DNA from: Pectobacterium peruviense
GTDB lineage: Bacteria > Pseudomonadota > Gammaproteobacteria > Enterobacterales > Enterobacteriaceae
Assembly: GCF_002847345.1 (NCBI RefSeq)
Contig: NZ_LXFV01000005.1
Coordinates: 248,001 to 312,000, forward strand
Length of the DNA stretch: 64,000 nt
Direction of reading: 5' to 3'
Position numbers and translations under genes: made by a program. Positions 4,947 through 57,873 of the stretch are shown one piece after another (positions within the stretch are counted from its first letter, which is position 1; the number at the start of each line of letters is the position of its first letter). The notes below the pieces were generated by a model. The model did not search any database, was not told where the DNA came from, and saw only the letters and a program-made list of their open reading frames with translations.

Positions 4947-5729
<783 letters not shown>

Positions 5730-54962: not shown

Positions 54963-54982
54963 ACGCTACGCAATCGAGTCAA

Positions 54983-55011
54983 AAGGCCAGCATATGCTGG
55001 CCTTTGTTATT
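54983..55011 (+). terminator. Terminator of accBC
   Basis: AAAGGCCAGC and GCTGGCCTTT pair around ATAT (54983-55006), followed by GTTATTT. It lies 20 bases past the accC stop. Confidence 0.85.
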
Positions 55012-55120
55012 TATGCCTTCGAGTCGTCATGCAGTTCGCAAACGCTTACTAGCACAAGCAGCCCGCAAGTAAACGAGGTAGGATATATCGTCTTTTTTAG
55101 GATGAGATGGTGGTTGCAGA

Positions 55121-55882
55121 GTGACAAGACAATCCGATTTTGATTTCTCGTGCAGACCATTAATTCCGTACGCCCACAACTATAATCACGGGGATTATGA
55201 AAGCTGGCACACTCACAGTTGCGCTCAGTTAATTCATACGCTTAGTGGGGTTATTCGGGTTGAAACCCAACAGGGAATCTGGGTGGTTCCACCTTCGCGT
55301 GGGGTATGGATACCCGCAGATATTCCACATGCCTTGCATATTGTGGGTGAAGTTAAGGCCAGAGTACTTTTTGTCGAACCGCTTGCCAGAGCAGACCTCC
55401 CTGTTATCTGTCAGGTCGTGGGGATCACACCTTTATTACGAGAACTCATCATTGATGTCCTGAAACTTCCCGCTAATTATGAGCCAGGAAGTCGGACCGA
55501 ACGTATTTATGAACTTATCCTTGATGAAATACGTTTGATGAATACGCTTCCTTTTTGTCTTCCTGAGCCGATTTCTGAGCGCCTGAAATTATTATGCAAC
55601 GCCGTCCGTCAGGCCCCCTATGAGGCCTGGACTGTGGCCAACGCTGCCGAGCAAGCCAATGTCAGCGTAAGAACGCTCAGCCGACATTTTTATCAGCAAA
55701 CCGGTATGCAATTTAGTGAGTGGGTTCGTCGTGCACGTTTGCTGATTGCGCTAACGCGCCTGGCACAGGGCGAACAAGTCACCCGAGTGGCGCTGGATTT
55801 AGGCTATGCCAACCCGGGAGCCTTCAGTGCCATGTTTCGCAGAGTCATGGGCGTAACGCCCGGCAATTACTTCAACCCATAA
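55121..55882 (+). CDS. AraC-family transcription regulator with N-terminal cupin
   Basis: Regulator of 253 residues: an N-terminal cupin sensor domain (about 15-110, with WHTHSCAQLI) and a C-terminal pair of helix-turn-helix motifs (about 165-253, with ANVSVRTLSRHFYQQTG and VALDLGYANPGAFSAMF). The start is GTG at 55121. It belongs to the NimR/YeaM-like group by look, which often controls a neighbouring export or metabolic gene. It converges on the 2-isopropylmalate synthase gene and their 3' ends overlap by 11 bases. The target is not known; the neighbour is the first candidate. Confidence 0.85.
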   Translation: MTRQSDFDFSCRPLIPYAHNYNHGDYESWHTHSCAQLIHTLSGVIRVETQQGIWVVPPSRGVWIPADIPHALHIVGEVKARVLFVEPLARADLPVICQVVGITPLLRELIIDVLKLPANYEPGSRTERIYELILDEIRLMNTLPFCLPEPISERLKLLCNAVRQAPYEAWTVANAAEQANVSVRTLSRHFYQQTGMQFSEWVRRARLLIALTRLAQGEQVTRVALDLGYANPGAFSAMFRRVMGVTPGNYFNP

Positions 55883-57542
55883 TCAAACGCCCTGCGGCAT
55901 TCAACATCGCTTGCAAAGAGGCTCGGGTAACATCGCTGTCAATGCTAACACCCCATGCACACTCACCCGCATGGTTCTGACAGCACACATAAGCCACAGA
56001 ACGACTGTCACTACGCTGGCCTAACGTGTGTTCCTGATAGCTCACAATATTAAGGTCTGCTTTCACCTCTCGGCAGAGAGCCGTCATGCCCGCAGAGAGA
56101 AAACCGTTTCCTGCGCCCTTCAAATTCAGTCTTTTTTCACGGAAAATGATTTCAGCTGAAAGCGTTGTGTTCTGCCCAAGCTGATTATCGCAGGTATATT
56201 TAGTTAACCGAATCAGCGGTAATTCGACTAAACCGTAAGCCTCACGAAATAGCATCCAGACAGCCATCTGCGACATCTCTTTCCCCTCAGATTCAGACGC
56301 TTTCTGTACCAGCAGACTGAATGCCTTCTGAAGTTGACGAGGCAAGATGAGGCCATGATTTTGCTCAAGCAACCAGGCAGCACCACTTTTCCCTGACTGG
56401 CTGTTTACGCGGATAACGGCCTCATAACTGCAACCGATGTCTTCCGGATCGAGCGGAAGATAGGGAATCTCCCATAATGGCGAGGCCGAATGCTGTCGTG
56501 CTGCAAACCCTTTTTTAATCGCATCTTGATGCGATCCGGAAAAAGCCGTAAAAGCGAGTTCTCCGGCATAAGGGTGACGTGGTGCGACGGGGAGTTGATT
56601 ACACTCCTCAACCACCTCCACCACCTTCTTCATGTGGCTGAAATCGAGTTCAGGGGAGATTCCCTGCGTATAAAGATTAAGTGCCAGCGTCACTAAATCG
56701 ACATTACCGGTACGCTCTCCATTGCCAAACAGGCAGCCCTCAACTCTTTCAGCACCAGCCAGTAAAGCAAGTTCAGCGCAGGCAATACCTGTACCGCGGT
56801 CATTATGCGGATGCACACTGATACAGACCTTATCTCTACGGGAAAAATGTCGGCAAAAATATTCTATCTGATCGGCATACACATTAGGCGTGTTGACCTC
56901 AACGGTCGCGGGAAGATTGATGATCATGGGACGGCACGCATCAGGCTCCCAGACATCGGCGACAGCCTCGCAAATCTCAAGCGCGAAATCTGGCTCGGTA
57001 AAGCAGAACGTTTCCGGTGAATATTGAAAGGACCAGTCAGTCTCCTGCGCCTCAGCACATAACTGACGGATCTGCTTCGTCGCATTGACCGCAAGCTGAA
57101 TAATTTCATCGCGTGTCTGACGGAACACCACCTCCCTGAAAATCGGTGCAGTCGCGTTGTATAAGTGAACAGTGGCGCGATGTACGCCACTCAGCGATTC
57201 AAATGTACGTGCAATCAAATCTTCTCGCGCCTGCGTTAAAACCTGAATTGTCACATTCTGCGGAATACGCTTTTCTTCAATCAATAAGCGAACAAAATTA
57301 AAATCAGTTTGGGAAGCAGACGGAAAAGCGACCTCAATCTCTCTGAATCCGCAGGCAATCAGCAGATCCCAAAATTTCAGTTTACGCATTTCATTCATCG
57401 GCTCAGCAAGAGCCTGATTACCGTCCCGTAAATCCGTGGAAAGCCAACGTGGGGGTTGGGTTAATGTCTTGTCAGGCCATTGCCGATCTTTTAGGCCAAT
57501 CGGTGGATACGCTTTGTATTTCGATGAAGGGTTATTCAACAT
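55872..57542 (-). CDS. leuA: 2-isopropylmalate synthase, class II (LeuA2 type)
   Basis: Condenses 2-ketoisovalerate with acetyl-CoA, the first step of leucine synthesis, or a related 2-keto acid. It has 556 residues, the longer form seen in Corynebacterium and Pseudomonas, unlike the 523-residue enzyme of the leuABCD operon. DLRDGNQ is at 37-43, the metal ligands are in HPHND (244-248), GNGERTGN is at 273-280, and a C-terminal LeuA allosteric domain follows. The rest of the leu operon is not near. AAAAGGAG lies seven bases before the ATG. It may be a second isozyme with a special role, such as a keto-acid chain extension. Function beyond the family is inference. Confidence 0.85.
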   Translation of the reverse strand: MLNNPSSKYKAYPPIGLKDRQWPDKTLTQPPRWLSTDLRDGNQALAEPMNEMRKLKFWDLLIACGFREIEVAFPSASQTDFNFVRLLIEEKRIPQNVTIQVLTQAREDLIARTFESLSGVHRATVHLYNATAPIFREVVFRQTRDEIIQLAVNATKQIRQLCAEAQETDWSFQYSPETFCFTEPDFALEICEAVADVWEPDACRPMIINLPATVEVNTPNVYADQIEYFCRHFSRRDKVCISVHPHNDRGTGIACAELALLAGAERVEGCLFGNGERTGNVDLVTLALNLYTQGISPELDFSHMKKVVEVVEECNQLPVAPRHPYAGELAFTAFSGSHQDAIKKGFAARQHSASPLWEIPYLPLDPEDIGCSYEAVIRVNSQSGKSGAAWLLEQNHGLILPRQLQKAFSLLVQKASESEGKEMSQMAVWMLFREAYGLVELPLIRLTKYTCDNQLGQNTTLSAEIIFREKRLNLKGAGNGFLSAGMTALCREVKADLNIVSYQEHTLGQRSDSRSVAYVCCQNHAGECAWGVSIDSDVTRASLQAMLNAAGRLIMG

Positions 57543-57596
57543 GATCGGGCTCCTTTTAATGGAACCCCAGTGTTATCCAGAGAGCCATGAGCACGC

Positions 57597-57638
57597 TCAT
57601 CCGGAGGTGACAACTAATGACGCAAAAGTGACAATCAT
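57597..57638 (-). CDS. Possible leader peptide upstream of leuA2
   Basis: ATG 57638 to TGA 57597 would encode MIVTFASLVVTSG, 13 residues rich in branched-chain amino acids. AAAGGAG lies 12 bases before the ATG, rather far. The stop codon falls in an ATGAGC-GT-GCTCAT hairpin. It could be an attenuator leader, but only one Leu codon is present and no terminator hairpin with T run follows. Speculative. Confidence 0.25.
   Translation of the reverse strand: MIVTFASLVVTSG
57607..57634. promoter_or_regulatory. Direct repeat GTGACAA x2, candidate AraC-type operator
   Basis: GTGACAA at 57607-57613 and again at 57628-57634, start to start 21 bases, which is two turns of the helix. This is the spacing expected for an AraC-family protein with two HTH motifs. 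Such a protein is encoded next door at 55121. Binding is inference. Confidence 0.4.
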
Positions 57639-57873
57639 TAAACCGTTCGGCTCCTTTTCCGAGTTTTTCACTCTGAAAAAACCGTCATGTTCACTCCCTG
57701 TTGGCGCTCGGAGTAAAATGTTCTCGCGTCAAATAATGCGTACCCCACGGCTGGCTTTTACGCTGATGACGTAATTCTTACTAGTCAATTTTCCCACATG
57801 CCGTAAAATTCCCGCTTTCGTCATCACGACGCTCATAACAATACCTATGCTCCCATTTACGGTGGAGAAGAAC

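Follow-up and report, generated by a model that had tools for sequence, protein, structure and literature searches.

A tandem site with a 21-bp period upstream of leuA2 in Pectobacterium peruviense is a probable operator of the convergently encoded AraC-family regulator

A direct repeat with a period of 21 bp lies upstream of leuA2, a gene for a class II 2-isopropylmalate synthase, in the 64,000-nt stretch of the Pectobacterium peruviense genome that we analysed (the window), and its core, spacing and position relative to a promoter -10 region are conserved at orthologous loci. The repeat is very probably the docking site through which the AraC-family regulator encoded at 55121 controls leuA2. 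We consider it probable that a dimer of this protein binds the repeat as the leuA2 operator and activates transcription in the class II manner, that regulator, operator and enzyme gene travel as one convergent mobile cassette, and that leuA2 is likely the only target of the regulator in its own genome. Specifically, the dimer would occupy two head-to-tail half-sites, each about TTGTCnnTTTnGCGnnAG and 21 bp apart, with each monomer using its two helix-turn-helix (HTH) motifs to contact both boxes of a single half-site. The cupin domain would sense a small molecule that triggers activation, and the bound protein would most likely recruit RNA polymerase to a leuA2 promoter without a good -35 element. 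The product would be a second isopropylmalate synthase, made beside the housekeeping class I LeuA.

LeuA2 (556 aa; 55872–57542, reverse strand; ATG start codon at 57542) is of the fungal/actinobacterial type. It scores 772 bits against TIGR00970 (cut-off 697), which places it among class II 2-isopropylmalate synthases, contains HMGL-like, IPMS_D2 and LeuA_dimer domains (PF08502, 5e-18), and is a relative of structure 1sr9. Its predicted activity is that of a class II isopropylmalate synthase. The regulator gene (55121–55882, forward strand) encodes a 253-aa protein with an N-terminal cupin (AraC_binding, 2.9e-7) and a C-terminal AraC-type HTH, the presumed operator binder, which matches HTH_18 at 1.4e-23 (83 bits, cut-off 33.6) and HTH_AraC at 8.9e-12 (45 bits, two stretches) and is thus of the AraC/XylS type. 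The 3′ ends of the two genes overlap by 11 bases (55872–55882). The domain matches and the gene layout confirm a preliminary description of this DNA, which had placed an AraC-family regulator directly past leuA2, convergent with it and overlapping it by 11 bases.

The same description had reported a GTGACAA repeat in front of the enzyme gene, and both copies are present without a mismatch at 57607–57613 and 57628–57634, 21 bp apart from start to start. Read on the leuA2 strand, both are TTGTCAC, at -92 and -71. Judged on the window by itself, this pair is hardly beyond chance. Single GTGACAA heptamers occur 9 times against a shuffle mean of 8.6 (49 of 100 shuffles reach 9), spaced pairs with up to two mismatches occur twice against a mean of 0.37 (5 of 100 shuffles reach 2), and two further 7-bp direct repeats lie within the same 338 bp. 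These near-chance numbers favor the reading that the repeat is accidental, or a promoter element whose TTGTCA resembles a -35 box and which needs no dedicated regulator, and by themselves they could not exclude chance. The significance of the repeat therefore derives from conservation across loci and not from window statistics.

We compared the 200 bp 5′ of leuA2 at 35 loci, leaving out the duplicates L001, L074, L050 and L072. An exact TTGTC-21-TTGTC arrangement is found in 20 of the 35 regions and, with the three loci of the window's genus left out, in 17 of 32, whereas at each of the other spacings between 8 and 44 a TTGTC pair is found in 0–2 loci. A 16-letter pattern is matched at 12 or more positions in all 35 loci, compared with 0.9% of 3500 dinucleotide shuffles; the pattern was built from the same loci, making this test partly circular, which the TTGTC spacing test is not. 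The upstream comparison thus upheld the 21-bp spacing with a TTGTC core, and the non-conservation that had been named beforehand as evidence against the site did not come true. The full heptamer did not extend as far, being present at both places in the window's genus only; the sixth base is A or C. An accidental repeat is rejected on this conservation, and the exact 21-bp register in loci outside the genus makes either form of the chance or promoter-element reading extremely improbable. TTGTCA as a -35 box is also rejected on distance, with ~32 nt between the second TTGTC and the -10, which is far too long.

An alignment of 33 loci (the 35 without L058 and L073; the site start of L053 was set by hand to -94, its best automatic match being the second half-site) contains ~0.1 bit in flanking columns and up to 2 bits in core site columns. 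The T, G and C of both TTGTC cores are invariant, as is a G at column 38 (33/33). Downstream of the first TTGTC lie TTT, GCG and A boxes. The conserved unit is therefore larger than the heptamer, with a core formed by the TTGTC pentamer (GACAA on the forward strand) and further boxes, and comprises two half-sites reading roughly TTGTCnnTTTnGCGnnAG towards leuA2. In five loci (L053, L054, L056, L061 and L063) one core is degenerate by a strict scan. In the window, distal half-site 1 (57617–57634, reverse strand; columns 0–17) contains TTGTC (57634–57630) and a TTTTGCG box and starts 92 nt 5′ of the leuA2 ATG, and proximal half-site 2 (57596–57613, reverse strand; columns 21–38) runs from TTGTC (57613–57609) to AG (57597–57596). 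At L058 (genome G096), whose leuA2 start was placed by extrapolating a partial match in the 35-locus comparison, the leuA2 N-terminus does not align, yet the tandem site remains, at 5611. Upstream of araC, the regulator gene, no site is conserved among 34 pair loci, where one weak match (11/16, L059) was found within 300 nt; autoregulation of araC was rejected on this ground.

The promoter keeps a constant geometry relative to the tandem site. The distance from the site start to the leuA2 ATG is 85–100 nt in most loci and 113–130 nt in three. In all 33 loci the best TATAAT match starts between columns 57 and 64, at column 59 in 17 of them (counted without a shuffled control), and in this -10 region column 60 is A in 30 loci and column 64 is T in 26. 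In the window, the candidate -10 box is GATAAC (57572–57577, reverse strand), with AACACT (57574–57569, reverse strand) as an alternative; transcription would start at about 57565, and AGGAG (57550–57554, reverse strand) is the ribosome-binding site of leuA2. A 17-bp spacer would put the -35 hexamer on columns 36–41, but a TTGACA match starting at columns 35–37 reaches at most 3 of 6 positions in every one of the 33 loci, leaving no good -35 box. From the -10 register and these poor TTGACA matches it follows that half-site 2 lies over the -35 position, in a promoter lacking a proper -35.

The mode of action proposed for the leuA2 site is familiar in kind. With GATAAC (57577–57572) as the -10, the half-sites in the window would begin near -69 and -48, which we take to be the starts of araI1 and araI2, themselves presumably spaced by 21 bp. 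Like araI1-araI2 at araBAD, the leuA2 site consists of two head-to-tail half-sites, the proximal one at the -35 region, and would bind an AraC-family dimer. The fixed 21-bp register, the proximal half-site on a poor -35 and the -10 in register are all features of an araI-like class II site. The 21-bp repeat suits a dimer that contacts two half-sites, each with two boxes about one turn apart. The fit to an AraC double-HTH protein suggested earlier thus survives as an AraC-type tandem site, with the repeat assigned to two monomers of a dimer rather than to the two HTHs of one protein. The leuA2 site differs from araI1-araI2 in half-site sequence, in that no distant loop site was found, in the position of its regulator, which is convergent and 3′ of the target, and in the target itself, a biosynthetic enzyme. 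For AraC at araBAD, binding to the adjacent sites araI1-araI2 goes with activation according to passages in PMC4760080 and PMC7499043.

A relative in E. coli points to the opposite sign of control. E. coli NimR, 31% identical to the window regulator and of the same architecture, has a TTGTC-21-TTGTC site in the nimR-nimT gap that reads towards nimT and is reached by 0 of 300 shuffles. A passage in PMC8249747 lists NimR as a single-target regulator. NimR is divergent from the exporter gene and annotated as a 'transcriptional repressor'. The window regulator could accordingly use the same operator to repress leuA2 until a ligand relieves it, as annotated for NimR/nimT, a reading that we consider unlikely. 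The leuA2 site sits 5′ of the -35 position and extends over it, in a promoter with no good -35 box and a -10 in register, as expected of activator-dependent transcription, and the E. coli nimT promoter differs by eye, with no -10 seen in the leuA2 register. Activation as the sign of control is thus inferred from geometry, against the NimR annotation. Since its neighbour is leuA2 and not an exporter gene, the window regulator is a relative of NimR rather than a NimR.

The regulator and leuA2 are tightly linked. Of 149 genomes sampled from the family, with a single genome for each genus, 23 contain a full-length regulator (52–100% identity), and leuA2 adjoins it in convergent orientation in all 23. 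Class II LeuA is found in 28 of these genomes, the 23 pair carriers and five others, two of which carry another AraC gene in divergent orientation. At 34 of 35 pair loci the 3′ ends overlap, by 4 to 80 bases. The nearest named relative is Pectobacterium brasiliense (99%). Outside the family, the regulators found in a phylum sample of 398 genomes did not exceed 48% identity, and at 22 fetched loci from it no leuA2 was found within 1.5 kb of the regulator relative. All 26 tested genomes with an intact pair carry class I leuA as well, making leuA2 a second enzyme. Distances among the regulators are correlated with those among the enzymes (r 0.90, 0/999 permutations, n 32), as would also be expected from joint vertical descent.

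This linkage bears on whether the neighbouring regulator gene is a bystander and another AraC-type protein of the genome binds the site. Candidates exist, as the genome encodes other, lower-identity homologues (13 matches with E values of 0.001 or below), and one of them (C1:111633–112334) is directly preceded by a weak TTGTC/TTGGC repeat. The 23/23 linkage and the correlated divergence of regulator and leuA2 argue against such a protein, as does the finding that the site type tracks the regulator subfamily outside leuA2 too (see below), and we regard a bystander role as very improbable. Two loci look degraded. At L042 (1489–1923, genome G078) only an N-terminal regulator piece remains (57% identical, residues 10–150) and no class II leuA was found in G078 at E up to 1e-100, consistent with joint decay of regulator and leuA2. 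In Enterobacter sp. EA-1 (L012) the pair looks damaged, with leuA2 and araC each matching in several overlapping pieces, and the tandem site is kept.

The leuA2 site is the sole zero-mismatch site in its own genome, where other sites start at two mismatches (three sites). With up to three mismatches the motif has 61 matches in this genome compared with 118 for a reversed-pattern control; across the 149 genomes, 35 matches with at most one mismatch, 8 of them at leuA2, compare with about 58 for the control. Only two zero-mismatch matches occur in the 149 genomes, both at leuA2. The motif is not specific enough for a genome-wide regulon definition. A wider regulon was rejected because own-genome matches beyond leuA2 do not exceed the control, and we infer a single target. 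A one-mismatch site in genome G106 was taken as chance, lying inside an amtB-like reading frame. A weak TTGTC/TTGGC repeat with 21-bp spacing (G000:C1:112367–112392) directly precedes a paralogous AraC gene of the window's own genome (29% identical; L109), and no nimT-like gene was found at this locus.

By its distribution, the araC-leuA2 pair behaves as a mobile unit. It is present in 4 of 25 genomes of the genus, and its closest relatives lie across families, in Erwinia, Chimaeribacter, Pantoea, Superficieibacter, Duffyella and Kosakonia. Plasmid records carry the pair in three genera (Pantoea piersonii, Duffyella gerundensis and Chimaeribacter arupi), and a Klebsiella pair lies between luxS and emrB on a record labelled plasmid whose genes look chromosomal. 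Among 5,426 E. coli genomes, no similar DNA was detected. The earlier suggestion that regulator and enzyme gene had travelled together agrees with their sporadic presence in the genus, the empty sites and the plasmid records, as well as with the convergent, overlapping layout retained across carriers. Within the genus, the accC-yhdT gap (window 54963–57780; loci L161–L185) is a variable insertion site. The junction is a compact gap of 62–75 bp in five pair-less genomes and holds other inserts of about 0.5–1.1 kb in eight genus genomes; in eight genus genomes its far side is beyond the fetched 1.5 kb.

Tandem sites also occur beside relatives of the regulator that have other neighbours. We sampled 30 regulators, 36–48% identical and without leuA2, leaving out the partial genes L015, L016 and L042. 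Fourteen have a tandem site in the 21-bp layout beside the gene, each reached by 0 of 200 shuffles, although the fourteen are not independent and include close kin (L100/L101 and L085/L090/L091); the other 16 of these 30 distant relatives have no site at the 0/200 level. Among ten typed neighbour genes, seven are MFS, two EamA and one DUF815. Nine of the ten loci belong to the group of 14 with a site; at the tenth, L096, the site is reached by 1 of 200 shuffles. A different kind of tandem site, TTGGCCCAAT.. / ATGGCCCAAT.. in which a second TTGACC or ATGACC stands at 21 bp, is shared by L096, L044 and L087 and may reflect a sister specificity. In P. aeruginosa (L154), a 50% identical regulator has a tandem site (0/300 shuffles) 96 nt before the first gene of an operon with which, like the window regulator and leuA2, it is convergent; this target is an MFS-HlyD-TolC export operon, not leuA2.

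In the regulator tree, the leuA2-linked proteins form one clade (SH-aLRT 97), nearest to the P. aeruginosa protein and two MFS-linked ones. The tandem sites beside the relatives, at L154 and at nimR indicate that the motif follows the regulator family and not only the enzyme, and together with the tree they assign the layout to a mostly exporter-facing subfamily in which leuA2 is an unusual target. An exporter-type regulator thus seems to have been recruited for a second isopropylmalate synthase, one of class II. Another AraC-family protein acts on a leuA2 promoter in Streptomyces avermitilis, where SAV742 binds it and represses leuA2, as described in a passage of PMC5107987; SAV742 is a global regulator with many targets rather than a dedicated neighbour. 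A leuA mutant of Pectobacterium is described in PMC3749726, and among open-licence PMC papers we found no literature on the araC-leuA2 pair.

A second, divergent arrangement exists in the genus. Another leuA2, of 52–53% identity, occurs in 5 of the 25 genomes, a set that does not overlap with the four carrying the convergent pair. At the one genus locus read (L160) and two from other genera (L147 and L149), a divergent AraC gene is accompanied by a tandem TTGTC/TGTC site at 21 bp, with TAATAT in the same -10 register as at the window leuA2; the scores of these sites are modest, with between 1 and 3 of 300 shuffles reaching them, and the three loci are related to one another. In the tree, the regulators of these loci fall with two EamA-linked proteins (98) and not with the window's clade, and their LeuA2 is sister to the window's LeuA2 clade (98, with a long-branch warning). 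A common origin of both arrangements, with the regulators as one clade, was rejected (AU p 0.0004), in a test whose regulator group was chosen after tree inspection and which includes long branches. Either two recruitments or a regulator swap would account for this pattern.

More speculatively, regulators of an export (detoxification) subfamily may have been recruited twice to a spare, mobile isopropylmalate synthase, with LeuA2 serving as an inducible bypass or sink rather than a housekeeping enzyme, an idea that we hold to be distinctly unlikely. If true, LeuA2 would be made on meeting a compound that relatives would pump out, such as an antimetabolite of leucine or a 2-oxo acid, and the spare enzyme and its switch would have spread jointly between genera. 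For this unstudied regulator, the analysis predicts an operator, a single target and a promoter geometry, and it raises the question of why many enterobacteria keep a second, movable isopropylmalate synthase under an exporter-type regulator. The 21-bp tandem logic may also be used to predict operators of other regulators of the subfamily.

The leaders of the divergent leuA2 genes contain a conserved GGTCGGGGTC...GACCCCGACC inverted repeat (L147 1160–1489, L149 1160–1489 and L160), which at L160 lies on the reverse strand about 330 nt before leuA2. At L147 a short leucine-rich reading frame is located 5′ of this repeat, which is possibly a leucine attenuator.
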